A stretch of DNA of 54,327 nucleotides from IMG/VR virus record IMGVR_UViG_3300032246_002540, positions 1-54,327 of that record; one strand, 5' to 3'. The stretch comes from a virus. Below the pieces are notes generated by a model. The model saw nothing but the letters and a program-made list of their open reading frames with translations, searched no databases and had not been told where the DNA came from. Every line of letters begins with the position of its first letter. The stretch's first letter is position 1. The position numbers were made by a program, and so were the translations under genes. This document shows positions 4,641 to 44,184 of this stretch, in pieces.

Positions 4641-4675
4641 ACACCGGTAAGCAATTACCGGTGTTCTTCTTATTT
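4641..4675 (+). terminator. intrinsic terminator
   Basis: ACACCGGTAA (4641-4650), loop GCAA, TTACCGGTGT (4655-4664), then a T-rich tail TCTTCTTATTT. Ten perfect pairs. It overlaps the 3' end of the minus-strand gene that begins at 5101, so it stops + strand transcription before that gene is invaded. Confidence 0.85.
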
Positions 4676-5101
4676 GGGCTGCCAGCCGTTACAGCAACCA
4701 CGTGCTTCAACTGTTTCATTCAATCGGAAAACATCAGGCATTTTTTCATTTAGTGATTCAAATAAACCGCATTTATTAGGTTTGTTAAACCAACTGCAAT
4801 TTTCGCAACGAACTTTATGTTCCACATAACCAGCTTCCTTGGGAGTGACTGCCTCACGTATTACCTGGTCGTCATAGGGTTTGCCATACACATATAACCC
4901 GCAACTGGCATCAGCAATGACCTTGTCGTTCTTGCCAAATATGCTGCAACGCTGTTTTTCAGGCATGAACATGAAACAACTGCCACATTGAGCAAAGTCT
5001 TTTATGTCAGGATCAGGATCCAGATAAAGGAACGCACTGCGATCTGTTTTGGCAGATTCGGTTTTGCCTTCCATGATGTCTAATAGTCGCTTCATTTCCA
5101 T
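4670..5101 (-). CDS. Cys-rich protein with a duplicated four-Cys module
   Basis: One of only two minus-strand genes. The 143 residues contain two similar modules: C39-x2-C42-x9-C52-x14-C67 and C99-x2-C102-x8-C111-x24-C136 (with C137). Four Cys per module suggest two bound metals or iron-sulfur clusters; I cannot choose. Both halves share a C-x-x-C-x-x-F start. The N-terminus MEMKRLLDIMEGK ends a short basic helix in I-M-E, similar to the putative capsid-targeting peptides of the 31-43 kb proteins. A GATAAATA motif on the same strand (5114-5107) lies 13 bases from the ATG, and there is no Shine-Dalgarno. Function unknown. Confidence 0.75.
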   Translation of the reverse strand: MEMKRLLDIMEGKTESAKTDRSAFLYLDPDPDIKDFAQCGSCFMFMPEKQRCSIFGKNDKVIADASCGLYVYGKPYDDQVIREAVTPKEAGYVEHKVRCENCSWFNKPNKCGLFESLNEKMPDVFRLNETVEARGCCNGWQPK

Positions 5102-5106
5102 GCAAT

Positions 5107-5114
5107 TATTTATC
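5107..5114 (-). promoter_or_regulatory. late-type promoter motif GATAAATA for the minus-strand gene
   Basis: On the minus strand GATAAATA occupies 5114-5107. A T4-style late start 13 bases from the motif start is 5101, the A of the ATG, so the message would be leaderless. Confidence 0.6.
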
Positions 5115-31120: not shown

Positions 31121-31128
31121 GATAAATA
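31121..31128 (+). promoter_or_regulatory. late-type promoter motif GATAAATA
   Basis: ATG at 31133 is 12 bases from the motif start; a T4-style start would be 31134. There is no Shine-Dalgarno. Confidence 0.6.
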
Positions 31129-31132
31129 TCTG

Positions 31133-32233
31133 ATGCGTATAAGAGAAATTATCACAGAGGCAGAAGCAGTAGATATTACTGGGCGAACTCCTCATCCTGA
31201 AGATGCCATCTTCGACGGCAGCAGCCACGCCGCACGTATGATACAGGCTCTCAGCAGTGTGATTAAAAATCCCGGCAGTCTCACAATCAAATGGGATGGC
31301 TTTCCCGCACTTATTTTCGGCAGATTGCCTGACGGTCAATTTACCGTTATGGACAAATATATGTACGACAATCCCCAGGGTCGTATCACTAGTGCCCAGG
31401 GTTGGGTAGACTATGACAACGCACGTGGAAAACCACGTCCTGACCTGTACCCTAAAATTGCCAACATCTGGGCAGGTTTGGAACAGGCTGTGGGAACCAG
31501 TCCTGGTTTTTACTGGGGCGATTTGCTGTGGAGCGATCCGCTCGCACCTGCACAAGGCAAATTTGTATTCCGTCCCAATCCCTGGGGCGTTACCTACAGC
31601 ATCGATGTCAACAGCGATCTGGGCAAACAGATCACCGGCAGACAGGGTGGCATTGTGGTACACACATTCATACCCAGCGATGGCGCACAACCGCAGCCTT
31701 GGAACGGTCAAGGCCTTAATATGAACACGCCAGTTGCAGTGTTGACGCCCAGTGCTAACATCGCTTTCACATTGAAAGATCCTGTGAAACTACGCAACAC
31801 TGCATCAGCAGTGCTGCAAAAAAATGGTGCTCTGGCAGATCAGTTCATGGCAGGACTGGACGACAAAGGTCGTATGGCTGTAAAGCAGTATGCCAACAAA
31901 TTGATCACCAAGCAAACAAACGACAGTATGGACAAATGGATAGTTAATGCCAACTTTAGCCAGAAACTAAAAAAGTTCTTGTTGGGTGAAAACAAAGATG
32001 GTTATCTGTATCAGAACAGCAAAGGCCTGGATGCCATATTCGCCATCTGGAATGCCATATACGCATTCAAGATAAACGTGACGGAACAGTTGGAAAAGCA
32101 GGTCAAAGGCATAGATCAGAGCATCAATGGGCAACCGGCTGGGGAAGGATTTGTTTTCAGCACACCGCAAGGACCAGTCAAGCTGGTAAATCGTGGCGTG
32201 TTCAGTGCGGCATTGTTTGCCAGAGGCGGTTGA
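31133..32233 (+). CDS. ligase-like nucleotidyltransferase with capsid-targeting-like N-terminus
   Basis: 366 residues. The core resembles covalent nucleotidyltransferases (DNA/RNA ligases): motif I TIKWDGFPALIFGR with K53-x-D55-G56, motif III-like YWGDLLW (127-133), motif IV-like GEGFVFS (E338-G339) and motif V-like VKLVNR (K350). The K-x-D-G lysine would carry the AMP. The N-terminus MRIREIITEAEAV is a short basic peptide ending I-T-E, similar to others in this block and to the T4 capsid-targeting sequence. A late motif precedes it. This protein belongs to an uncharacterised family present in T4-like aquatic phages. If cut after E9 and packaged, it could act on injected DNA. The assignment is by motifs only. 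Confidence 0.6.
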   Translation: MRIREIITEAEAVDITGRTPHPEDAIFDGSSHAARMIQALSSVIKNPGSLTIKWDGFPALIFGRLPDGQFTVMDKYMYDNPQGRITSAQGWVDYDNARGKPRPDLYPKIANIWAGLEQAVGTSPGFYWGDLLWSDPLAPAQGKFVFRPNPWGVTYSIDVNSDLGKQITGRQGGIVVHTFIPSDGAQPQPWNGQGLNMNTPVAVLTPSANIAFTLKDPVKLRNTASAVLQKNGALADQFMAGLDDKGRMAVKQYANKLITKQTNDSMDKWIVNANFSQKLKKFLLGENKDGYLYQNSKGLDAIFAIWNAIYAFKINVTEQLEKQVKGIDQSINGQPAGEGFVFSTPQGPVKLVNRGVFSAALFARGG

Positions 32234-32234
32234 T

Positions 32235-34313
32235 ATGAAAGCCAAACAGATATTCGAAGATGCACATCACACAATTTGCATTTATCCAGGCAGATTCCAA
32301 CCTCCCCACCGCGGACACGCAGCCACATATCGTTTGCTTGAAAAGAAATACGGACAGGAAAACACGTTCATAGCTACCAGCAATAAAACTGATGGCGACA
32401 AGAGTCCCTTCGATTTTGCAGAAAAGAAAGCACTGCTGATTGCTGCTGGCGTACCAGCTGAGCGCATAGTACAAGTGGTAAACACATACAATGCAACAGA
32501 AATAACCAGCCAATATGATCTGTCACACACTGTTGTGTTGTATGCAGTGGGGGAAAAGGATATGGGCACTGATCCCAGATTCAGCAACTTTGTTAAAAAA
32601 GACGGCACTCCCACTTATCTGCAACCTATGATTCCTGAGCCCGAAACTGCTGACAATCACGCCTATCTTATCATCGCTCCCACAGTTGAATTCAAGATGA
32701 ACGGCAAGCCCATCACTAGTGCTAGCGAGATAAGGCAGATGTTCAAGGACGCCGATCCCGCAGAACGTGCAGACATAGTGCATCAGTTGTATGGCATGGA
32801 CACAGCCAGCGTGTTGAAGATCTTCGAGAAAAAGCTGATGCCAGAGCATCCTGTGCAGGACTATATCAATACTAAAAATCCTGTCAAACCTGCTAAAAAG
32901 AAAAACAAGAAACAAGAACTGGAACTTCCTGAAAACTACACTATGGAGCAGTTCGATCGCATACTGAACAATATCATTCTTGAAGCATACAGCAAAGCGG
33001 AACCAGAAAAAGAACCTGTACATCCTGGTTCTAAGATAGATCCTGATACACTGATAGATCCTGATCTAGGAGCAGTACCTGCTCGCAAACCTGTTAGCAA
33101 ACAAAGCAACAGCAATGATGAATTAGAAAAAGAACTACAAAAGCGCATAGGCGAAAACTTCAAGGACGGCCGTCATCCCGAACACAAGGGTGACAGCCAG
33201 CGCCACGGTATCCCCAAGGGTGCTACTATGGCACAGGATAAAAGACTTAGTATTCCGGAAGTTGACCTTCATTATGATCCTAAATTCAAACTATCCACAC
33301 ATATGTATGACAAGGGATATGGCGTTACACCTCCTACTCAGTGGTCTGACGTCGGCAAAGATATGGTTATAAATCCAGATAAACCTACCATTATTGTTCC
33401 AGGCGGGAAGAAACAAATAGCGCCTGGCATCAAAGGCATGTTGAAGCAGCAGGGACGACAGCAATACGATCCAGGTACATATAAAGATTATCATCGCACT
33501 GCTTATAGTCAGGAAGATCCGGATGACATCGATACAGATGATACAGAGATGATCCAGGAACCTGTAGACGAGAACTTTGCAGATGGCAAGGGACCAGGTC
33601 GTCCGGGAGACAGCCAGCGCCACGGCATACCCAAACACGCCAGCGTCAGCACATTACGCAAGATAGCTAAACAAGGCGGCCGCAAAGGCCAGTTGGCTCA
33701 CTGGCAGGCTAATATGAAAGCCGGCAAGAAAAAAGCCAACGAAGAAACCATTTACAACTGGGCGGCAGTGCCCAATAAGCCTGTTCCAGCAGCACCGGTG
33801 GATATGCGTGGTGTTAAAATCCAATCTGTGTTAAAAAAATTACATGAAACCGATCAGCAGCTGATGGACGAAGGCATATTCGATGCCATAGGTAGAGGTT
33901 TATATGGAGCCGGCGCAGTAGACAGCGGTGCCGAAGCCTTGGACGCTATCAAACAGGGCGATTGGCAGACAGCACTAGGTGCTGGTTTGGAAGCTGGTGG
34001 TAGTGCGTTGGGTATGTTACCCAAATTCAGTCTGCCCACCGCTCTAGGTGGTGTGGCATTGAGTGCATTGGGATCAGCTATAAAACCTGCCCCCAAATAT
34101 CAGAATGGTTTACCTGTCCCAGATCATACACAAGCTGGAACAAAAACAGCAGGCAGGGCACCTGTGGATGTACCCAATCCTCCTATCATCAGGGATCCCG
34201 GAGCAGGCAGTGCTGCACCGAACACCACACCTGATAGCAGCACCAGCCCCAATCTAAGCACCAATAAACCCAAACCCGCTGTGAAAAAACCTCGTGCTCC
34301 AATAGCTAGTTAG
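32235..34313 (+). CDS. HxGH nucleotidyltransferase with repeat linker and Gly/Ala-rich tail
   Basis: 692 residues. N-terminal ~190: adenylyl/cytidylyltransferase with YPGRFQPPHRGH (H25, H28) and SASEIRQMF (I-x-S-A-S-x-I-R). Middle: two copies of a G-D-S-Q-R-H-G-I-P-K module near residues 310 and 450, each preceded by E-N-F-x-D-G, then GGRKGQLAHWQANMKAGKKK. C-terminus (from about 530): a hydrophobic Gly/Ala-rich domain (ALGAGLEAGGSALGMLPKFS) and a Pro-rich tail. The start MKAKQIFEDA has I-F-E, fitting the capsid-targeting pattern. The ATG lies one base after the preceding stop. No late motif is between the genes, so it is co-transcribed with the ligase-like gene. Nucleotidyltransferase identity is firm; substrate unknown. 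Confidence 0.75.
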   Translation: MKAKQIFEDAHHTICIYPGRFQPPHRGHAATYRLLEKKYGQENTFIATSNKTDGDKSPFDFAEKKALLIAAGVPAERIVQVVNTYNATEITSQYDLSHTVVLYAVGEKDMGTDPRFSNFVKKDGTPTYLQPMIPEPETADNHAYLIIAPTVEFKMNGKPITSASEIRQMFKDADPAERADIVHQLYGMDTASVLKIFEKKLMPEHPVQDYINTKNPVKPAKKKNKKQELELPENYTMEQFDRILNNIILEAYSKAEPEKEPVHPGSKIDPDTLIDPDLGAVPARKPVSKQSNSNDELEKELQKRIGENFKDGRHPEHKGDSQRHGIPKGATMAQDKRLSIPEVDLHYDPKFKLSTHMYDKGYGVTPPTQWSDVGKDMVINPDKPTIIVPGGKKQIAPGIKGMLKQQGRQQYDPGTYKDYHRTAYSQEDPDDIDTDDTEMIQEPVDENFADGKGPGRPGDSQRHGIPKHASVSTLRKIAKQGGRKGQLAHWQANMKAGKKKANEETIYNWAAVPNKPVPAAPVDMRGVKIQSVLKKLHETDQQLMDEGIFDAIGRGLYGAGAVDSGAEALDAIKQGDWQTALGAGLEAGGSALGMLPKFSLPTALGGVALSALGSAIKPAPKYQNGLPVPDHTQAGTKTAGRAPVDVPNPPIIRDPGAGSAAPNTTPDSSTSPNLSTNKPKPAVKKPRAPIAS

Positions 34314-34326
34314 TACTGCTCTGCTA

Positions 34327-34334
34327 GATAAATA
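34327..34334 (+). promoter_or_regulatory. late-type promoter motif GATAAATA
   Basis: Predicted start 34340 is exactly the A of the ATG of the next gene; there is no Shine-Dalgarno. Confidence 0.65.
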
Positions 34335-34339
34335 ATTCT

Positions 34340-37300
34340 ATGAGCACCATATTTGACAAGTATAATCTTCATCGCCACATAATCGCAGAAGAACAGGATC
34401 TTTTGGAAGTCAACATGAGCCCAGGTGCTCTCAACGACTTCGCCAAGAGCGAATCAGCACAAGGTATGACCATCGGTTTCGAGATGGAACTAGTGATGAA
34501 TGATTTGCCTGACGAAGGGGGTTATAGTGGTGAGTCAGAAACTGAAGCTGACATGGAATATAACGATGACTTTCCCACTGGTTCAGGTTGGCGCAATGAT
34601 GTCATATCCTGGTTGGAAGGGGGCGATAATCCCAACGGTGATCGTGATGTTGAACGGACAATGGAATGGTTTGACGAACAGTTCTTTGAATATGCAGACG
34701 AGATGTTTGCTAATGCGTTAGATGAAGATGAGGATCTCCAAGAAGAAGTAAGAAAGGAGATTCATGATATCCTTGCACTTCAAGATAAACCAAGCGATAC
34801 AGATGCAATAGCTGCTGAATATGATGAACAGACTGACATTTATACTGACGCAGTTGATAGAGTCAAAGAAGGTTGGCAAGAAAACGAAATAGATAATGCG
34901 TTTGATGATTTCCGCAGACAATATCGCATCAGGGACATGGAAGATTTCCTCAATTATGTAAACCGTAACCATCCCCGCATCAGTCTAAACTGGCCTTACA
35001 TCACTTATTCTGGGGGCAATGGAGAAGGTGGCGATCTGGGAGATTATCTGCAAGATGTAGCTAATGAACTGGAAGTTAAATTAAAGAGAGTCAATAGTGC
35101 TTTCTATGTGGTGGTTAGCCAAGACTATCATGATGAAAGCAGAGAAGAAAACAAATTCATCATAGAGCCAGACGGCAGCATCAGTCCTCAGGGCAGAGAG
35201 TTCATTAGTCCAGCTATGCCGTTTGCAGATGGCATCGCAGCTATGCAAGTGATGTTCCAGTGGGCTCAGAACCAAGGTTATAAAACCAACCATAGCACTG
35301 GTTTCCATATGGGTATCAGCTTGCCCAATCACGAAACACAGAACATCGACCATATGAAATTCGTGCTGATGCTGGGGGATAATTATGTGCTGGAAAAATT
35401 CAATCGTGCCAAAGCACACTATGCAGTCAGCACCGCTGCCACTATGCGCGACACACTCAAAAGGAACAGCCAGGTCACAAAAGAACAGGTTGCTCAATAC
35501 CTGAGACAGATGGCAGATGGTGTACAGGATCTGGCTACGGCCGAACTGAACAAGCTGCTGGTACCTAGAGGCGAGCATCGCCAGAGCGTGAACATCAAGA
35601 AAAACTATATGGAGATCCGTTCAGCTGGCGACAACTATCTGCCCAGATTCGACGAGATCCGCCTCACACTGTTACGCTATCTCAAGACACTGGAAATCAG
35701 TGCAGACGATCAGGCATATCGCAAAGAATATGCCAAGAAGCTGAGCAAATTCCTGACCAATACCAATATGATCCGCACAGTGGATCCCATCACTGGTCGC
35801 AAGAGCGTGGCTGCTAAAGAAAGCCTGGATGCCACGGTACAACGGGCTTTCGAAGAATACTTTTCAGCACTCCAGCGCGGTGAATCGGGCGATGAAGCTA
35901 TCCAGAAACTCACAGAAAAATTAAATTCCTACAAAGGCGATAAGGTAGGCCAACTTAAACAACAACTGCGTAGCAAACGAGCTAATAATGATCCCAGTGC
36001 TACCAAGCTGAAATATCAGGGCAGCGACCGTGTGGAATTTTCAGCCACGGGCAGTGCTTATGATGTGCTCAACAGTTTCATCGAACAGCTGAGAGATGCT
36101 GGTATGGGTGTACAGCACGAAAAAGCCATGTATATAGAGGCTCCCAAAGGTCAGATATTATACAACGTGGAATTCCGATATCGTGCATCCACTCGCGAAT
36201 TTAGTTATTGGTGCTTTGCCACTGATAAACGCGGAGCGATGGAACAAGCCAAGAAAGCCTGGAACACTGGTGCAGATCAACCTGGCGACAGTTGGTTAGC
36301 ATACGAGCAGACAGGAGATAACCAGAGCCTTTACTATATCCTGAGGCACTACTTGGACAGCAACAAGACACCTCCGGCTTTACCAGTTGATCGCACTACA
36401 GGTAGTCCCGCACAGGCAGAACAGCCTGAGGAAAGGCCCATTACATACAGCTTGCGCGGTCTTGATGATCGTGGTATCGTTACTTTTACCACCACTAACG
36501 ATCAATCTGCCCTAGATGCTGCTAATCGGTTCATAAGCCAACATAGCCAGTATAACTATAACAACGTAGAGTTGTTTCGTTATGCGAATGATGGCGTGAG
36601 CAGACAACCTGTCAATCTATTCAATCATACATCTCTTGGTAATGCACAAGAGCAACCAGCACAAGCTAACATACCCGCTTGGTCGCCCAACGCACGAGTC
36701 GCATACCAGCTGGTAGACAGGAATGGCAGTCCTATAACAGCCTTCACAGATGGCGCCCGCATACCTACTAACAGCCTCTTCTACGCTGCTGATAGCTTAG
36801 AAGCAGTTCGTCGTGCTGCAGATCTGGATAGGATCCATGGCCTACCGCAAGGATATCGGGTTAGACCGTTCGGTGGACCTGGCAGTGGCAGTGGTGGCCA
36901 GTCCCAGGCCAATACAGCAGGTACAAGTGAAACCTACATCATCACCTATCGTGATCCACAAGGCCATGCACATCAGACTGCTTATGATGCTAACAGCGAT
37001 AGAGAAGCAGAAGCATTGTTCATGCGACAGCATCCTGCCGGCTATTGGATAGAAGCGATTGTCACTCAACAGCAACATTCAATCGAGGGCACTCCAGGTA
37101 CGTTTATCGTGACTTATCTTAGCCCTCAAGGTAATGAGCAGCAAACCACATATAATGCCAATAGTGCTACCGAGGCTGCATCCTTGTTCCGTATTCACCA
37201 CCCGGCCAGCTATCGCTTACACCAGATAGAAAGAGTGCGAGAGAGCGTAGGTGAAAGCGCAGAAGTCACAGAAACTCTGAAGAAAGTCAAAGGAAAATGG

Positions 37301-38275
37301 GCTCTGGTCAGTAGACAGAATCCAGAAAAAGTGCTACAATACTATCATGGATCAGGTCACCCCAGCAAAGAATGGGTAAGCAAGGTGGAACGCAGAGTAC
37401 ACAGTTTCGAAAGCACTCTAAACGAATATGATGTCCGCGGTTACACGCTGAAAAGTGTATTTCCAGACGGTGACATACAGGTTAGCGGTCACGTGTTGGA
37501 TCGTGCAGATGAGTATCACGTCAGCAAGCGTGAGATAGACACCTGCTTGCATCTGGCTGGACAAAAATATCAGAGACGTTTGTTCGATCTGGAAAATGTA
37601 AACTTTGTCGTCCGCAGCCATGGCGTGGGAATAAGCCTGGCTGTGAGCAAAGTGGAAGGAATAAACGGATACTACTATAAAGTCCGCACACTGCACAGAC
37701 AGCTGAGAACAGGTGTGGGCCAGGACGTATTGATGGTGGAAGACAGTTTCCCCGCCCACCAACCTTTCCGTGTGTATCTGGATATGGACGGCGTGCTGGC
37801 TGATTTCTTCGGCGAATGGAGCAGATTGTCTGGTGTCAATCACTACAAAGACATAGCAGATGTGGGTGCAAAGCTACAGATGGTCAGAGAACATCCCACA
37901 TTCTGGACCAACCTGCCAGTGCTACCACACGCCAAGACACTGGTACGTGCTGTGATAGATATGTTCGGTGAATATTACATTTGCAGCAAGCCGCTGGAAG
38001 GCGATCCTCGCAGCGCACCAGGCAAACGTGCCTGGATACAGCGTAACCTGTCGGAAATGCCACCAGCTGACATCGTGCTTACCAGCAACAAGGCGGAGTT
38101 TGCTACCACTGAGACTGGCCCAGCCATATTGATAGATGATTATGGCATCAATGTGAATCAGTGGCAGATGGCTGGTGGTATCGGTCTTAAATACGAAGAC
38201 ACTCCCGCAGGCACCAACTTGTCACACGTACTCAAAGTGTTGCAAACGTTCGCCAAAGCAGGAAGCCAACTATGA
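34340..38275 (+). CDS. giant amidoligase-like / HAD phosphatase fusion
   Basis: 1311 residues. Residues 42-460 look like a carboxylate-amine (amidoligase, GCS-like) domain: GMTIGFEMELVM (E-M-E at 48-50), EPDGSISPQGREFISPAMPF near 275-295 and NHSTGFHMGISL near 316. A strongly acidic insert (60-200) lies inside it. Then come at least two tandem repeats near 870 and 920 (TYIITYRDPQGHAHQTAYDA; TFIVTYLSPQGNEQQTTYNA). A KGKWALVSRQNPEKVLQYYH segment near 985 recurs in phage proteins. The C-terminus is a HAD hydrolase: YLDMDGVLADFFGEW (D1148, D1150), then ILIDDYGINVNQWQ, like 5'(3')-deoxyribonucleotidases. The N-terminus HRHIIAEEQD contains I-A-E. Late motif, leaderless start. Confidence 0.75.
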   Translation: MSTIFDKYNLHRHIIAEEQDLLEVNMSPGALNDFAKSESAQGMTIGFEMELVMNDLPDEGGYSGESETEADMEYNDDFPTGSGWRNDVISWLEGGDNPNGDRDVERTMEWFDEQFFEYADEMFANALDEDEDLQEEVRKEIHDILALQDKPSDTDAIAAEYDEQTDIYTDAVDRVKEGWQENEIDNAFDDFRRQYRIRDMEDFLNYVNRNHPRISLNWPYITYSGGNGEGGDLGDYLQDVANELEVKLKRVNSAFYVVVSQDYHDESREENKFIIEPDGSISPQGREFISPAMPFADGIAAMQVMFQWAQNQGYKTNHSTGFHMGISLPNHETQNIDHMKFVLMLGDNYVLEKFNRAKAHYAVSTAATMRDTLKRNSQVTKEQVAQYLRQMADGVQDLATAELNKLLVPRGEHRQSVNIKKNYMEIRSAGDNYLPRFDEIRLTLLRYLKTLEISADDQAYRKEYAKKLSKFLTNTNMIRTVDPITGRKSVAAKESLDATVQRAFEEYFSALQRGESGDEAIQKLTEKLNSYKGDKVGQLKQQLRSKRANNDPSATKLKYQGSDRVEFSATGSAYDVLNSFIEQLRDAGMGVQHEKAMYIEAPKGQILYNVEFRYRASTREFSYWCFATDKRGAMEQAKKAWNTGADQPGDSWLAYEQTGDNQSLYYILRHYLDSNKTPPALPVDRTTGSPAQAEQPEERPITYSLRGLDDRGIVTFTTTNDQSALDAANRFISQHSQYNYNNVELFRYANDGVSRQPVNLFNHTSLGNAQEQPAQANIPAWSPNARVAYQLVDRNGSPITAFTDGARIPTNSLFYAADSLEAVRRAADLDRIHGLPQGYRVRPFGGPGSGSGGQSQANTAGTSETYIITYRDPQGHAHQTAYDANSDREAEALFMRQHPAGYWIEAIVTQQQHSIEGTPGTFIVTYLSPQGNEQQTTYNANSATEAASLFRIHHPASYRLHQIERVRESVGESAEVTETLKKVKGKWALVSRQNPEKVLQYYHGSGHPSKEWVSKVERRVHSFESTLNEYDVRGYTLKSVFPDGDIQVSGHVLDRADEYHVSKREIDTCLHLAGQKYQRRLFDLENVNFVVRSHGVGISLAVSKVEGINGYYYKVRTLHRQLRTGVGQDVLMVEDSFPAHQPFRVYLDMDGVLADFFGEWSRLSGVNHYKDIADVGAKLQMVREHPTFWTNLPVLPHAKTLVRAVIDMFGEYYICSKPLEGDPRSAPGKRAWIQRNLSEMPPADIVLTSNKAEFATTETGPAILIDDYGINVNQWQMAGGIGLKYEDTPAGTNLSHVLKVLQTFAKAGSQL

Positions 38276-38285
38276 GGGCTAATAA

Positions 38286-38546
38286 ATGTACAGCGACCAT
38301 CATGTCTGGGATCAAATATACAACATTTGTTTAACTTATACCGATACAACGCCTGCAATAAAAACTACAGATATCAAGAAAAAAGCTGCTAGATATCTGG
38401 CTATGGATCAGAAATCCAAGATAACCAAAAGCGATCAGAGACGCATCTGTGCCAAAGCAAAAAAAATCAAAAAACACAGTGAAAAGATGCTGAAACTACA
38501 GGAACAACTGATGGCTAAAAAAGTCATACAGGTTTATAATGGATGA
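38286..38546 (+). CDS. small basic unknown protein
   Basis: 86 residues, Lys-rich (nearly a quarter), with TTDIKKKAARYLAMDQKSKI and KKIKKHSEKMLKLQEQLMAK. Likely helical and perhaps nucleic-acid binding. No clear ribosome site; a degenerate AATAAATG is next to the ATG. It overlaps the next gene by 8 bases. Confidence 0.6.
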   Translation: MYSDHHVWDQIYNICLTYTDTTPAIKTTDIKKKAARYLAMDQKSKITKSDQRRICAKAKKIKKHSEKMLKLQEQLMAKKVIQVYNG

Positions 38547-38880
38547 TTTTGATTTTTACGTTATCCTGAGACCAGTTGATAAAATTAAAACAAAATTTTA
38601 TAGAGTGTATGCTTTTGTAAAAAAAGACAATCATGCTCATAGACAATTATTGGTAGAGCGAGATTGTACTGGATTAAAAGACAATCAGTGGATCATAGAG
38701 AGATTTACCTTGCGCCTAGATAAAACCAATGCCAAAGTAAATCTGGTATGCGAAGCAAATGATGGATCTTTGGAAATCTATGAAGTTGCCTATAATGGTG
38801 GCAAATTTTTTAATATTTTAAACACTAATCTCTACTCCTTTAACGCTTATCAGATTGATTTCAATTTAACATGTTCATAA
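38539..38880 (+). CDS. unknown protein, 113 residues
   Basis: Starts within the previous gene. Mixed alpha/beta, with DDFDFYVILRPVDKIKTKFY and DLKNQW-like strands, no motif found. AT-rich coding style unlike its neighbours (few AGC codons), which may mark a late acquisition. Confidence 0.6.
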   Translation: MDDFDFYVILRPVDKIKTKFYRVYAFVKKDNHAHRQLLVERDCTGLKDNQWIIERFTLRLDKTNAKVNLVCEANDGSLEIYEVAYNGGKFFNILNTNLYSFNAYQIDFNLTCS

Positions 38881-38886
38881 TAAATA
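38879..38886 (+). promoter_or_regulatory. late-type promoter motif AATAAATA
   Basis: Predicted start about 38892, followed by AAGAGGA and ATG at 38907. Confidence 0.6.
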
Positions 38887-38906
38887 TGCTAAGAGGAAAA
38901 TAACCT

Positions 38907-40211
38907 ATGGCATACACTATCAAAGACAATCCAATTCATGGTAAACTGCTAGCAGATAGCAAAAATAAGATAGTTGTCACAGACTATAAAAAAGCTGTGC
39001 AACTGGCAGAAAATTACAGCGGTATCAATGTATTGAAAGCAAGTCCTGGCCGATTCATGGTACAGTTACCTGAACACGTCAACAGCATAGAAGAATGTGA
39101 TTGCCAGAACAACGATATCAGCTATTCCAGTGGTATGCCTAATCCTGCTAGTTACAACCAATATCCTGATCACGAAGTACAGATGGCCAGACAGGAATTG
39201 TATCGCACAGCCAAGCTGGCCATGATGACACACGAATTGCTCAAGCACGTGGGCGAGCGCCAGGGCCTGGAAGGCTGGGTGCAGAGCAAACTGACTCGCG
39301 CAGCGGATTACATCGAGACAGTATATGGCTACTTGGATTACGAGATGCGCTATCCCAGCGAAATGTACGAATCAGCGCCAGTAAAAAAAAACAAAGGCAG
39401 AATAAAAGAAGCGATTAAACCCATAACACCATTACCCAGACTGGGCCCAGCCCCACGAGGTATGGAAGGCAGTCCCATCACACTCAGTACAGAAGATCCA
39501 CAGAATCCCGGTCGTCCTCCCATCAGGGCGGAAAAGGTGCCAGGAATGGTCAAGATGGTACCAGTGGATGACAACGGTCAAGCAGAAGGTCCGCCCATCG
39601 ATGTTCCTGGTTTCGAAGTGGCACTGAAGCAGAAAGCCGGATACAAAGTGATCGGTGAGATGGCCAGTGCCGGTGCAAGCAGTGCCGGTGGTATGGCTGG
39701 CAGCCCAGCAGCTGGTGCAGGCAGTTTGTTTGGAGGTAATTTCCAACAACGTGGCAATCCTTTCCGTAAAAAGAAGAAAAAAGTGCGTGAAGTTATAATG
39801 AAACCAGAAGATATGTCTGATGAAAAACAAGACAGGATCAATAACAATAGACCGGAAGACACCACTGATATAATCAACAGGATGAAAACTAACCGTGCTA
39901 TGGATACGTTTCAATCTGGAATGCCCGACATCCTAAAACAAGTGAAAAAAGTCCGGGAAACAGATGATGATCCATTGGTGAAAAATCTGCCACCCATCAA
40001 CACCACAGGTGACAATAGCCGTACTGCCAAATTGGCCGCTGCTGCCACAGGTAGCACAGCGGCAACCCCTGCCGCTACAAACAGCCGTAAAAGCGCACAA
40101 GATTTCATGAAGATGGATACAAAAGAAAGCAGCACTGGTCCCAAATTCACTGGCTATTGGAAAGGCAAAGACAAGGGCAAGCCCGGCAACAAGATGGTAG
40201 GAAGCAACTGA
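38907..40211 (+). CDS. structural or packaged protein with helical domain and disordered tail
   Basis: 434 residues. Residues 80-150 hold a helical segment (QMARQELYRTAKLAMMTHEL, then LKHVGERQGLEGWVQSKLTR, then AADYIETVYGYLDYEM) that recurs in T4-like aquatic phage proteins. The remaining 280 residues are largely disordered, Pro/Gly/Ala/Lys-rich. There is no I-x-E N-terminus, but I-K-E occurs near residue 168. Late-type promoter. A scaffold, core or packaged protein fits, but this is inference. Confidence 0.7.
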   Translation: MAYTIKDNPIHGKLLADSKNKIVVTDYKKAVQLAENYSGINVLKASPGRFMVQLPEHVNSIEECDCQNNDISYSSGMPNPASYNQYPDHEVQMARQELYRTAKLAMMTHELLKHVGERQGLEGWVQSKLTRAADYIETVYGYLDYEMRYPSEMYESAPVKKNKGRIKEAIKPITPLPRLGPAPRGMEGSPITLSTEDPQNPGRPPIRAEKVPGMVKMVPVDDNGQAEGPPIDVPGFEVALKQKAGYKVIGEMASAGASSAGGMAGSPAAGAGSLFGGNFQQRGNPFRKKKKKVREVIMKPEDMSDEKQDRINNNRPEDTTDIINRMKTNRAMDTFQSGMPDILKQVKKVRETDDDPLVKNLPPINTTGDNSRTAKLAAAATGSTAATPAATNSRKSAQDFMKMDTKESSTGPKFTGYWKGKDKGKPGNKMVGSN

Positions 40212-40212
40212 T

Positions 40213-41013
40213 ATGAGAGCATATGAAATTATCACAGAAAATTTTGACAAAAGCCATGGCAGTGCCTATGATTGCGGCGGTGCAGACAGCTGGTATGGCC
40301 GCAGATTTGCTCCACACAAATATGTTGAAATGCCAAATGGCAACCGCCAACGTGTGGAATTGACAGATCCCGAAGAGATAGCTGCATACAAGGCAGGCTA
40401 TGAGGCTGAAGGCGGTCAGGGTAAAAATTATGGCGAAAGCGTAACAGAAGCGGCTAACGCTGCACAACAGGCCGCTATCGCAATCAGCATGAAGAAAGCT
40501 GGCAAGAAACCCAAACGCAAGATGAAAGAGGATGAAGAGCAAAGCTCATATCCCACTGATGCTCCCATCGGCACCAAATACGGCAGTTTCAGGACACCAG
40601 GTGGTGTCAAGATGAACAAGTTCACAGGACCTGAAATGGTACCTGATATCAGACCTGCCAGGTTAGGCGCCCCCAAGGCACGTTTTCCAGTCGATGCACC
40701 AGTAGGCACCAAATATGGCAGCTTCACTGATAAGGATACTGGTGAACAGATGGACAAGTATGTGGGCCATGAGCTGACACCACACTTCCAGCCTCGTAGC
40801 AAGGGTCCTTGGATACCCAAACCCGACGATACGGCAGCACAAGGTACACCAGCGCACGACGAAGCCACTTTTAAAACCACAGAGAGCGCAAAAAAAGGCC
40901 TGTATTATAATGTAAATAAACGTAAGGAAAAAGGCACCAGTCGCAGCAAGAACGATCCTGGAGCACCCAGCGAACAGGATTGGAAAAACGCCGCAAAGAC
41001 TGCTAAAAAATAA
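40213..41013 (+). CDS. putatively packaged protein with capsid-targeting-like N-terminus
   Basis: 266 residues. Begins MRAYEIITENFDKSHGSAYD; I-T-E at 7-9 followed by a HGSAYDCGGADSWYGRRFAP block found in other aquatic T4-like phage proteins. Two internal near-repeats (YPTDAPIGTKYGSFRTPGG and FPVDAPVGTKYGSFTDKDTG) lie near 115 and 155. The end (KKGLYYNVNKRKEKGTSRSK) is another recurring phage tail. ATG one base after the previous stop. Likely cut by the prohead protease and packaged; no enzyme motif. Confidence 0.65.
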   Translation: MRAYEIITENFDKSHGSAYDCGGADSWYGRRFAPHKYVEMPNGNRQRVELTDPEEIAAYKAGYEAEGGQGKNYGESVTEAANAAQQAAIAISMKKAGKKPKRKMKEDEEQSSYPTDAPIGTKYGSFRTPGGVKMNKFTGPEMVPDIRPARLGAPKARFPVDAPVGTKYGSFTDKDTGEQMDKYVGHELTPHFQPRSKGPWIPKPDDTAAQGTPAHDEATFKTTESAKKGLYYNVNKRKEKGTSRSKNDPGAPSEQDWKNAAKTAKK

Positions 41014-41024
41014 GGAATAGTAAT

Positions 41025-41171
41025 ATGGCCAAAGCACCCAAGCAAACTGTAATACAAAAAAGAATAAGTGTTAATAAGAAAACAAGTCAGGGTTTGGGTA
41101 ATATCAAGATGGCCAGTATGAACAAAAAAACCAAAGCCAGCTTTAAAAAGTACAGAGGACAAGGCAAATGA
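41025..41171 (+). CDS. very small basic protein, 48 residues
   Basis: Lys-rich: starts MAKAPKQTVIQKRISVNKKT and ends FKKYRGQGK. The KKYRGQG end is a signature of a small basic protein in T4-like phages. AAGGAATAG lies before the ATG and the stop overlaps the next gene as ATGA. It may bind DNA in the head. Function unknown. Confidence 0.75.
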   Translation: MAKAPKQTVIQKRISVNKKTSQGLGNIKMASMNKKTKASFKKYRGQGK

Positions 41172-41608
41172 GTGATATGCGTGAATTGATCGACAGATTG
41201 ACTGCAATCAGTGAAGATCGTCCTGCCAAAGGTGATGGTATCTATCTGGAGTTTGGCAACACTCTCTGTGTGGAATCAGAAATCATCGATATCACAGAAT
41301 CAGGTGATTTTATCATCAGTGGGGATGACAGATTCATGCGTGTTGTGGAAAGCCTGGAACTCATGGAAGCTGAGTATCATGGTCGCAAAGTGCCTCTGAA
41401 CAAGCCTATGCGCGGCGATGTTAAGAAAAGCAAAGTATACGTCAAGGATCCCAAGACAGGTAACATCAAGAAAGTCAACTTCGGCGATAAAAAGATGCGT
41501 ATCAAGAAAAGCATCCCTGGTCGTCGCAAAAATTTCCGTGCCAGACATCATTGTGAAAATCCCGGACCCAAGACCAAAGCCAGATATTGGAGTTGCAGGG
41601 CCTGGTAA
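41168..41608 (+). CDS. conserved T4-like basic protein, capsid-targeting-like N-terminus
   Basis: 146 residues. The start MSDMRELIDRLTAISED contains I-S-E; a second possible cut, L-M-E, lies before residue 75. The C-terminal half (HGRKVPLNKPMRGDVKKSKV, then FGDKKMRIKKSIPGRRKNFR, then ARHHCENPGPKTKARYWSCR) is a very conserved phage domain with two Cys near the end, strongly basic. It probably contacts DNA or the capsid interior. ATGA overlap upstream, TAATG downstream. Confidence 0.7.
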   Translation: MSDMRELIDRLTAISEDRPAKGDGIYLEFGNTLCVESEIIDITESGDFIISGDDRFMRVVESLELMEAEYHGRKVPLNKPMRGDVKKSKVYVKDPKTGNIKKVNFGDKKMRIKKSIPGRRKNFRARHHCENPGPKTKARYWSCRAW

Positions 41609-42147
41609 TGAGAGCAACAGAATTCATCACAGAAGCAGATGCTGTTGCTAAAAAACCTGCTGCTCCGGCTGCAGAAGTTAACCCTGAAAGCAATTTTGGT
41701 ACCGCTGTACAAAATGCCATAGGCAGTGCCATCAAGAACAGCCCTATAGGCAGTGCTATCGATACGGTAGACGCCATCCGCAAAGGCGATGTGGGCGGCG
41801 CTGTGGGGTCTGCTGTTGGTGGCGTAGGTAGGACCGCAGGCTATGCTTTGGGTGGCCTTCCTGGATTGGCTGTTGGTTCAGCATTAGATGCTGCTGGCAA
41901 CGCTATCAAAAACACTACTACTGGAGGGGCTGCACAGGTCAATCCCAATAAGCCAACAAAACCCAAGAAGATAGCCGAAGCCAGCGGTCACATTCCCAAG
42001 GACGAAGAAGAAGCAAAAGATCCCCGCTACAGCAATGCACTGACTGTGGACATACATCCTGGCGAAGATGCCAAACAAGCAGCCAAATTAGGGTTCCAAT
42101 TAGACAACGGTCGCCCACCACTTCTAAGCACGTCAGGCAAACGATGA
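41608..42147 (+). CDS. putatively packaged Gly/Ala-rich protein
   Basis: 179 residues. Start ATG overlaps the previous stop (TAATG). MRATEFITEADAV is a clear capsid-targeting-like peptide (I-T-E at 7-9). Next comes a Pro/Ala linker and a hydrophobic Gly/Ala-rich part (IGSAIDTVDAIRKGDVGGAV, ALGGLPGLAVGSALDAAGNA) similar in style to the C-terminal domain of the 32235 protein (ALGAGLEAGGSALGMLPKFS). It could insert into membranes at DNA entry, but this is speculative. Confidence 0.65.
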   Translation: MRATEFITEADAVAKKPAAPAAEVNPESNFGTAVQNAIGSAIKNSPIGSAIDTVDAIRKGDVGGAVGSAVGGVGRTAGYALGGLPGLAVGSALDAAGNAIKNTTTGGAAQVNPNKPTKPKKIAEASGHIPKDEEEAKDPRYSNALTVDIHPGEDAKQAAKLGFQLDNGRPPLLSTSGKR

Positions 42148-42932
42148 GTGTCCTGGAATACAATCGTAGCATCAACCCCCTGAGAGAATCCAAACATACA
42201 GATTATCACGGTCCCAGTGACAGTGCAGAAAACCGTCGTGCCAACTATACCGGCCCAGAATACACATACAGATTCAATGATCAGGGATTTAGATCTCCCG
42301 AACTAACACCCAATGATCCCTGTATAGTCAGTTTTGGATGCAGTATCACTATGGGTCAAGGCGTACCAGAAGAAAAAAGATTTGCCAATTTGTTAGCAGA
42401 AAGATATGATCTGAACCATTACTGCTTTGCAGCTGGCGGCAGTGACAACTTGTGCATTTTTAAAAATTTCACAAGTTTTTTCAAAAATAATCTGGAAGGT
42501 TTGGATACCAAGTTAGTGGTAATATTGTGGAGTTTTCCCAGTAGAGTAAGCATTTGCAAATTAGATGCAAAAGGTTTACCTTGGGAACGTACTTTAGTAA
42601 ATGACGAATCATATCCTGACGATGATGAGCTTGCTGATTTTCACCTTGGTTGGATCAATCATAGTGCCGATCTTTATACACTGCAATTTATCAAAGCAGC
42701 AGATATCATTGCTAAACTAGCAGGTATAAAATTGGTGCAGCTTTGTATCGAAGATATTAAAACCCCCTATCTGCCTATAGACAGTTTCCATAGTAAACCC
42801 GATTGGTACAAGCATCCTTCCTTGTTAGGTATCGTGGATCTGGGCAGAGATATACATCCAGGTATGGCTAGCCATCAAAATATTGCAGATATAATTATAG
42901 ATATTTGCGATATGCAACAGTGGCGATTTTGA
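42144..42932 (+). CDS. SGNH/GDSL-like hydrolase
   Basis: 262 residues. SGNH hydrolases deacylate esters such as O-acetyl groups on glycans. Block I is PCIVSFGCSITMGQGVPEEK, with Ser67 as nucleophile; the last block has GRDIHPGMASH with D236 and H238. The middle contains AAGGSDNLC and VVILWSFPSR in the positions of blocks II and III. ATGA overlap with the previous gene. It could act on the host surface polysaccharide or virion glycan. Compare the tail of the first (cut) gene in the window. Confidence 0.75.
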   Translation: MSVLEYNRSINPLRESKHTDYHGPSDSAENRRANYTGPEYTYRFNDQGFRSPELTPNDPCIVSFGCSITMGQGVPEEKRFANLLAERYDLNHYCFAAGGSDNLCIFKNFTSFFKNNLEGLDTKLVVILWSFPSRVSICKLDAKGLPWERTLVNDESYPDDDELADFHLGWINHSADLYTLQFIKAADIIAKLAGIKLVQLCIEDIKTPYLPIDSFHSKPDWYKHPSLLGIVDLGRDIHPGMASHQNIADIIIDICDMQQWRF

Positions 42933-42938
42933 TAAATA
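42931..42938 (+). promoter_or_regulatory. late-type promoter motif GATAAATA
   Basis: Predicted start 42944, one base into the ATG at 42943; no Shine-Dalgarno. Confidence 0.6.
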
Positions 42939-42942
42939 AAAT

Positions 42943-43296
42943 ATGCGTGTAAGAGAAATAACAGAAGCTGTGATGAGTGTGGGCATACAAGGTCGTAGCC
43001 CAGTGAGTCCAGGCGCACGTGGTTTGATGGCCAGTCGTTGGAAGTACAAGACTGTCACAGATGCAGCAGAACCTGTGAATATGAAAAATGCTGTAGCTAG
43101 GCTAGCTGCCAAATTGGATGACGTGGAAAAGATCGATTACGACAGCATAAATGATCTGATGCAACAGATTTGTATGACACAGGCCATAGACCCCAAAGAT
43201 CTACATAAAGAATTTGTCAAAAAATATAATTTGACTCCTGATCGTTATGCTGTTAAATTAAAGCATGATAGAAAAAACAGACCCCGTAGCGTTTAA
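42943..43296 (+). CDS. putatively packaged small protein
   Basis: 117 residues. Starts MRVREITEAVMSVGIQ; the first seven bases of its N-terminal codons and its peptide (M-R-x-R-E-I) closely match the ligase-like protein at 31133, and I-T-E ends at residue 8. The rest is helical and basic (AVARLAAKLDDVEKIDYDSI, NLTPDRYAVKLKHDRKNRPR). A late motif with a leaderless arrangement precedes it. Function unknown. Confidence 0.7.
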   Translation: MRVREITEAVMSVGIQGRSPVSPGARGLMASRWKYKTVTDAAEPVNMKNAVARLAAKLDDVEKIDYDSINDLMQQICMTQAIDPKDLHKEFVKKYNLTPDRYAVKLKHDRKNRPRSV

Positions 43297-43450: not shown

Positions 43451-43890
43451 GCACCACAGCCTACGACGATCAATTTGTAACAATAAACACTCACGGCAGT
43501 GGAAGCGGTGCTGGAACAACCTATACCGGATATGGTGCTGTTCCACCATTAGGTGCCGGCGCTGTTGGTGCCACTGGTAGTTTTTCAATTCCAAGTGGAA
43601 CATTAAGTATTGGTAGTAATAGTCCACAGTGGAGCAGTATAGGTTCAGGATCAACATCAATGACCACAAGTATCTTAAGTATAATGGCTGAGGGCGATGG
43701 TGACGCTATGATCAAAACCAAGAAGAATACCATCAACCTGGACCAGATGGCCACTATGATGGAAACCGTTAAAGAACGATTGCTGATCTTGGCACCAAAT
43801 TTCGAATTACATGAAAAATATCCAGCACTTAAAGAAGCCTATGAACACTACAAAGTGTTGGAAGCAATGATGGCGGCCGACGATAAATAA
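43447..43890 (+). CDS. phage protein with Gly/Ser-rich start and PALxEAYxxY tail
   Basis: 147 residues. The first 75 are Gly/Ser/Thr-rich and probably disordered; then KKNTINLDQMATMMETVKER and the tail HEKYPALKEAYEHYKVLEAM, the same module as the end of the protein at 9500. Such proteins occur in T4-like aquatic phages next to packaged-protein genes. Function unknown. Confidence 0.7.
   Translation: MSTTAYDDQFVTINTHGSGSGAGTTYTGYGAVPPLGAGAVGATGSFSIPSGTLSIGSNSPQWSSIGSGSTSMTTSILSIMAEGDGDAMIKTKKNTINLDQMATMMETVKERLLILAPNFELHEKYPALKEAYEHYKVLEAMMAADDK
43882..43889 (+). promoter_or_regulatory. late-type promoter motif GATAAATA
   Basis: It overlaps the last codons of the previous gene. Predicted start 43895, one base into the next ATG. 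Confidence 0.5.
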
Positions 43891-43893
43891 TCG

Positions 43894-44184
43894 ATGCTGC
43901 CAGTAACACTTAATGAATATGCACTAGATAATCTGAGTTTGAGCCATTGCCTGCGTCGTACTCGCACCAGTCCCAGGTACAACGTGCAATTAGTGGAATC
44001 AGGTATCCGTATCACAGATAATGAACACTTCGACATCTGTCTCACAAGCGATTTCCAATATGTAGAGGGCGCACCTGTATTCGTGTACAAAACTCTCAGC
44101 GAAAGCTGTGCATACAGCAAACGCCAGGAAATCACGGACTGGCTGGAAAGAGCTAAGATTAAATTTGAATCCGGCTACATTTAG
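43894..44184 (+). CDS. unknown protein, 96 residues
   Basis: Starts MLPVTLNEYALDNLSLSHCL; mixed alpha/beta, neutral. No Shine-Dalgarno; preceded by a GATAAATA motif. No family recognised. A sigma70-type promoter for the following gene begins inside it. Confidence 0.65.
   Translation: MLPVTLNEYALDNLSLSHCLRRTRTSPRYNVQLVESGIRITDNEHFDICLTSDFQYVEGAPVFVYKTLSESCAYSKRQEITDWLERAKIKFESGYI

Follow-up and report, generated by a model that had tools for sequence, protein, structure and literature searches.

We report that a set of proteins encoded by the 54,327-base linear IMG/VR virus record IMGVR_UViG_3300032246_002540, which carries T4-like genes and was analysed over its whole length (the window), begin with short leaders resembling the capsid-targeting peptides of phage T4. 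Such an N-terminal peptide, ending in (I/L)-x-E, is found on eight unrelated proteins, seven of them encoded at 31133-43296. We consider it highly likely that these leaders are T4-type capsid-targeting sequences, which would be cut by a gp21-type protease and would load an enzyme-bearing cargo into the head; packaging, cleavage and injection are what we infer from the combined analysis. The virus is a bacterial virus related to phage T4, and its enzymes are probably carried ready-made into the cell with the DNA. Genes are named below by their first position in the window, and a slash within a peptide marks a putative cut. The tagged genes, with protein lengths in amino acids (aa), are as follows.

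31133..31159 (+), leader MRIREIITE, with AEAVD after the predicted cut; disordered in the structure model, kept in relatives
31133..32233 (+), DUF6267 (PF19782) protein, 366 aa, ligase-like nucleotidyltransferase candidate (Pfam, alignment, model)
32235..32258 (+), leader MKAKQIFE, followed by DAHHT
32235..34313 (+), HxGH nucleotidyltransferase (CTP_transf_like, phrog_395), 692 aa (Pfam, phrog_395)
34340..34390 (+), possible leader MSTIFDKYNLHRHIIAE, followed by EQD; weaker, with no basic residue 2
34340..38275 (+), 1311-aa protein with a sub-threshold amidoligase-like region and a C-terminal NT5C/HAD domain
40213..40239 (+), leader MRAYEIITE, followed by NFD
40213..41013 (+), 266-aa protein with a conserved C-terminal 48 aa (10 relatives of the C-terminus)
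41168..41215 (+), possible leader MSDMRELIDRLTAISE, followed by DRP
41360..41371 (+), internal site LME/A before the phrog_7595 domain (66 distinct homologous junctions)
41369..41608 (+), very basic C-terminal domain of about 79 aa (phrog_7595), predicted to be the mature form of an internal head protein
41608..41634 (+), leader MRATEFITE, with ADAVA after the predicted cut
41608..42147 (+), 179-aa protein with no assigned function
42943..42966 (+), leader MRVREITE, followed by AVM
42943..43296 (+), 117-aa protein (phrog_10346-like)
43894..43917 (+), possible further leader MLPVTLNE
5069..5101 (-), leader MEMKRLLDIME
4670..5101 (-), 143-aa protein rich in cysteine, lying apart from the rest of the set (CxxCxxCC below cut-off)

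All N-termini named in an earlier note on this DNA were found in the sequence at the starts given for them, and the minus-strand protein that it had added to the set (4670-5101) fits as well, beginning MEMKRLLDIME/GKT. The strongest form of the leader, M[KR]...[LI]-x-E with the glutamate at residue 7-13, was scored on 71 curated genes and is present in 8; shuffled N-termini gave a mean of 0.47 matches (0.74 with residue 2 fixed), and 0 of 20,000 shuffles reached 8. It occurs in 5 of the 11 genes of the block versus 3 of 60 outside it (Fisher p = 0.0016). These three are 4670(-), 2742 and 48095, the last two of which, having no other support, may be chance matches. Without a basic M[KR] start, 34340 and 41168 are by themselves less convincing members; what speaks for 41168 is a conserved internal site, while for 34340 the one supporting element is a late-promoter octamer. 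An additional candidate outside the earlier list, 43894, starts with MLPVTLNE/YALD and has the same octamer spacing. Similar leaders precede different Pfam and PHROG families, that is, the same leader is borne by unrelated proteins. In contrast, the cytidyltransferase-type proteins 1266 and 52069 of the same window have no leader.

L-x-E is frequent at phage N-termini, and the run could in principle have been picked by its reader out of a chance distribution. A loose pattern is indeed common, matching 23 of 167 genes of cyanophage S-CREM2 whose products were undetected in virions, and was rejected as a genome-wide predictor because it is not specific enough (in these genes, and in the related contigs G001 and G002). 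We give chance practically no weight, however: it is contradicted by the shuffle test, the clustering and the retention of the leader in orthologs, which rule out chance clustering, and a strict pattern, M[KR].{1,7}[FILVMY][LIMV].E, has no match in lambda (0/76) or P-SSP7 (0/57). Among the 235 open reading frames (ORFs) called in 150 kb of T4, this strict pattern matches IPII, IPIII and three others. A shared gene neighbourhood was also rejected as the cause of the shared N-termini. The other tagged proteins of the window have almost no relatives beside DUF6267 in related contigs, which implies that leader and genes move independently.

Conservation could be followed for the 31133 protein, which belongs to DUF6267 (102.3 bits against a Pfam cut-off of 27) and for which a scan for relatives returned 76 loci. 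The sequence before the invariant HPED differs in length and content among these relatives, and all 44 of the 44 distinct junctions keep [LIVMF]-x-E at most 22 residues before HPED (shuffles: mean 24.6, maximum 35). Examples are MELNFINEVLLE/VKAAP, MKLDFINSILME/ARTG, MLEFISTLFE/AAASP and MKFSFINMLTE/AADP. In the predicted structure, obtained from 23 sequences with a mean predicted local distance difference test (pLDDT) of 88.3, residues 1-17 are the sole disordered stretch. In some relatives DUF6267 is fused behind a domain bearing GSTGRK...GDLDLAV, with an ILSE/AAP-type site (for example ILSE/AAPSPR) at the border. We observed this arrangement, a nucleotidyltransferase-like domain followed by an h-x-E site and then DUF6267, in L028, L029, L035, L039, L042, L059 and L073; judged from their sequences, these fusions look as if two mature proteins were made from one ORF.

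A similar site lies inside the 41168 protein, whose C-terminus is a very basic domain, phrog_7595. Relatives of this domain were found at no fewer than 599 viral loci, at least, where they end very diverse proteins with widely differing upstream parts. Among 66 distinct junctions, P1 is Glu in 59 and Asp in 7, P3 is L, I, V or M in 56 and P1' is Ala in 66, while P2 and P4-P9 vary. The invariance of Ala and Tyr may in part come from the domain itself, and the informative columns are P1 and P3. The site in the 41168 protein is predicted to be a second cut site, [LIVM]-x-E/A, before the C-terminal domain. At locus L217 a leader is joined straight to the domain (MLRFKQFSE/AEYQGRKV, start unproven), and phage C48C1 carries both a tagged DUF6267 (MMLDFKNFITE/Q) and a 41168 relative with an MKKFKQYIDE leader and LTE/AEYQGKKV.

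These junctions bear on another explanation, in which the N-termini are a conserved amphipathic helix that stays uncut and serves some other purpose, such as scaffold or membrane binding or translation start. The leaders are short and compatible with a basic amphipathic stretch, and some start codons stand directly behind the octamer GATAAATA. Nevertheless, P1 Glu and a hydrophobic P3 are kept while the flanks vary, and the same site recurs at domain borders inside proteins, far from starts. We regard this explanation as very improbable.

This late-promoter-like octamer occurs 8 times in the window, against 1.8 expected. For 4670(-), 31133, 34340, 42943 and 43894 it precedes the start codon by 4-5 nucleotides (nt), at the following places.

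31121..31128 (+), GATAAATA, 4 nt before the 31133 start
34327..34334 (+), GATAAATA, 5 nt before the 34340 start
42931..42938 (+), GATAAATA, 4 nt before the 42943 start
43882..43889 (+), GATAAATA, 4 nt before the 43894 start
5107-5114 (-), GATAAATA, before the 4670(-) gene

An octamer at most 12 nt from the start is found for 4 of 8 tagged genes versus 1 of 63 others (p = 3.4e-4). Such a short gap points to leaderless late transcripts, and it is possible, from the sequence, that tagged genes with GATAAATA are expressed as leaderless late mRNAs. Among 18 DUF6267 relatives checked, the octamer was at that place in L002 only. The late promoter of cyanophage S-PM2 is NATAAATA (PMC2984593). This element also occurs in the window, at 150, 11367, 13046 and 38907, with a gap of 18-20 nt to the start, unlike the 4-5 nt of GATAAATA.

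The gp21-type protease and putative cut sites in the major capsid protein, to which the earlier note had pointed, are both found in relatives, but neither gene lies on the 54 kb fragment. Among 14 long contigs of relatives, 6 carry an S77 prohead protease and 8 carry gp23 (some of the gp23 matches being short fragments). The head module of G004 and G005 has the order core protein, gp21, gp22, gp23; gp22 contains many L-x-E sites, gp22 and gp23 are both rich in L-x-E, and near the gp23 start we find LLKE/STAGTT and LLAE/SSAGTT, in which the exact cut is putative. The same contigs hold further tagged genes: MRATDFITE, MRAKEFLTE, MRAGEFITE, MRAKEFIIE and MRAKEFVTE in G005, and four adjoining tagged genes in G004, the DUF6267 gene being the last. 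Runs of tagged genes in related contigs include, for example, MKIKELLE and MKMKELLE beside MKIQELLKE. A GNAT acetyltransferase of G004 (L097:1189-2586 (-)), with the leader MKILDILSE, is by its sequence a candidate for another packaged enzyme.

As to the nature of the cargo, the label of HxGH nucleotidyltransferase proposed earlier for 32235 holds: CTP_transf_like (PF01467) scores 23.4 bits against a cut-off of 21, phrog_395 matches with E 1.6e-8, and the motif reads GRFQPPHRGH. For 34340, described as an amidoligase-HAD fusion, the HAD part is retained (NT5C, PF06941, 28 bits against a cut-off of 24.8), but Amidoligase_2 (PF12224) reaches 19.4 bits (E 0.001), below the curated cut-off of 22. 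The ligase-like label of 31133 comes from motifs and from a fold match that falls short of significance. K53, D55, G56, E338, G339 and K350, within KWDG, EGFVF and VKLV, are invariant in the 23 DUF6267 sequences, a layout that we take to be ligase-superfamily motifs I (KxDG), IV (EGxxF) and V (xVKLV). When the model was compared with the PDB, the best four matches were RNA ligases, but with E 0.1 or worse and a template modelling (TM) score of about 0.18; no PDB match was significant. A ligase-like fold is suggested on these grounds. Finally, phrog_455 spans DUF6267 at 22-340 and a cytidyltransferase at 375-722, a sign that the two may be fused in some cases and may act in a common pathway.

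Published virion proteomes offer a comparison. The cytidylyltransferase T4-GC190 was found in virions of cyanophage S-SM1 (Sullivan et al. 2010, PMC3037559), and the same enzyme is listed in virions of S-SZBM1 (PMC9146016), S-SCSM1 (PMC9602691) and S-CREM2 (PMC10665884). All four are tagged: MKKFSAFLNE/A in S-SM1, MKSFLQFLKE/A in S-SCSM1, MRFRQFIIE/A in S-SZBM1 and MKNFSSFLTE/A in S-CREM2, and the last three are members of phrog_395, like 32235 of the window. In S-CREM2 the strict pattern matches 6 of 219 genes, all six among the 52 virion proteins and none among the 167 undetected ones (p = 1.4e-4); the matches include a SAM (S-adenosylmethionine) hydrolase, a kinase and the cytidylyltransferase. 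The DUF6267 neighbour of the S-SZBM1 enzyme, SSZBM1_141, has no leader and does not appear in the part of the virion table that was consulted.

T4-like capsid targeting, as the earlier note proposed it, is thus backed by tag retention, site conservation, the S77 protease and gp23 of relatives, the octamers and cyanophage virion proteomics, but several observations weigh against it. No match to gp21 (S77 protease), gp23 or terminase was found within the 54 kb window, which indicates that the record is a fragment; gp21 and gp23 are not found in three long related contigs (G001-G003) either, and the looser leader pattern is not enriched in G001 and G002. No direct relatives of 34340 and 42943 were found with which to compare their leaders. 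Cyanophage DUF6267 proteins begin without a leader, and DUF6267 is therefore not obligate head cargo. The S-CREM2 test was not blind, several detected N-termini having been seen before the pattern was fixed, and two of its six matches (gp17 and gp156) are probably due to chance. S-SCSM1 is a weak replicate: of its five annotated genes with the strict pattern, one bears a virion label. Neither virion set reports the small tagged protein SSCSM1_30 / SSZBM1_191. The authors of the cyanophage virion papers also allow for carry-over of abundant proteins.

If the leaders act as in T4, the tagged genes would be transcribed late, and each protein would be docked by its leader to the scaffold core while the prohead grows. 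Cutting after (L/I)-x-E by a gp21-type S77 protease, as when it trims gp23, would then free the mature protein in the head; in some relatives, one reading frame would supply two cargo domains separated by a cut site. On infection the cell would receive, along with the DNA, a cargo made up of the DUF6267 ligase-like enzyme, the HxGH nucleotidyltransferase, the HAD-domain protein and small basic proteins, and this cargo would be active ahead of phage gene expression. Its most likely role is to take over the host early or to counter its defences by way of nucleotide, nicotinamide adenine dinucleotide (NAD) or RNA-end chemistry. Alternatively, the capsid-targeting leaders may be real, and the proteins may serve head assembly or DNA condensation in the capsid and not be injected effectors. 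Some of the cargo is small or basic (40213, the C-terminal domain of 41168), and T4 IPIII shows an assembly phenotype (PMC9026906). In contrast, the enzyme domains (HxGH transferase, HAD, the tagged GNAT of G004) have no obvious assembly role, and the T4 internal proteins and Alt, which have such leaders, are injected (PMC9026906; PMC12373910). We consider a purely structural role improbable.

Several elements of the injected-cargo reading are already known: the T4 system, the packaging of the enzyme Alt by T4, the packaging signal of P1 DarB, and the cytidylyltransferase in cyanophage virions. A close likeness is to T4 IPI, IPII and IPIII (leader MKTYQEFIAE, gp21-processed), which share the short, portable basic leader ending in hydrophobic-x-Glu and a gp21-type protease in the lineage; the cuts FIAE/A in IPII and IPIII and FLTE/A in T4 gp23 resemble EFITE/A and EIITE/A in the window. 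However, the T4 internal proteins are small anti-restriction proteins (PMC12373910), whereas the cargo here includes large proteins with enzyme domains, some with domain-border sites. T4 Alt, an injected ADP-ribosyltransferase, is likewise packaged and undergoes cleavage by gp21 (PMC9026906), but it is a single enzyme of another family, and its leader MELITELFDE departs from the M[KR]..[FI]I-x-E type. The cyanophage T4-GC190 cytidylyltransferase / NMNAT belongs to phrog_395 like 32235, often stands beside DUF6267 and has the same type of leader; its DUF6267 neighbour is leaderless, and the proteomics papers name no leader. The Dar system of P1 also delivers a large protein, DarB, which bears an N-terminal packaging signal and protects DNA (PMC9024508), but the sequence is different and no common signal was detected among Dar proteins by BLAST (PMC9024508). 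The earlier note knew of no description of such an enzyme set. A cytidylyltransferase, a kinase and a SAM hydrolase had in fact been reported in cyanophage virions, but no targeting leader was named there, and our searches of the open-licence literature found neither a connection of these enzymes with leaders of this kind nor domain-border sites.

The leaders would offer a mechanism for the metabolic enzymes of cyanophage virions, which the authors of those studies could not separate from carry-over. They would also widen the internal-protein system known from T4 beyond small anti-restriction proteins to sets of enzymes, indicate many candidates for early counter-defence and protein delivery, and provide a rule, based on sequence, by which the phage proteins that enter heads may be predicted. 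A further, tentative reading, which we hold possible but rather doubtful, is that, in T4-like phages infecting many hosts, a single portable head-entry tag and interdomain cut sites allow enzymes and domains to be exchanged within a pre-loaded injection kit. Here the kit would consist of linked nucleotidyltransferases (the ligase-like DUF6267, the HxGH transferase, the HAD phosphatase and, in relatives, nucleotidyltransferase-like fusions) that repair RNA ends or rebuild NAD during the first minutes, ahead of any action by host defences. If this were true, head cargo could be predicted from sequence alone.

The block of tagged genes has no megablast match in published phage DNA. The T4-like gene content of the window includes the following.

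44552, gp43-type DNA polymerase
20894, gp44-type clamp loader
22424 (-), PhoH
11367 and 13046, baseplate wedge matches

Three minor observations concern leaders in known phages. A small cyanophage protein with a clear leader (MKTFKQFMSE/SVNISGDFNG at L247:44215-44535 and MKSFKSFLSE/SVNISGDFNG at L241:27312-27629 (-)) is unreported in either virion proteome. The Cas9-like gp12 of S-CREM2 (L239:7704-10313 (-)), which is reported in virions, has a leader-like FASFMAE/AA at residues 19-27, and it may be that a Cas9-like protein is packaged in the phage head. In T4 itself, gp61.1 (54 aa, hypothetical; L257:18966-19130 (-)) starts with MKTFKEFIKE/DM, a leader like those that target the capsid.

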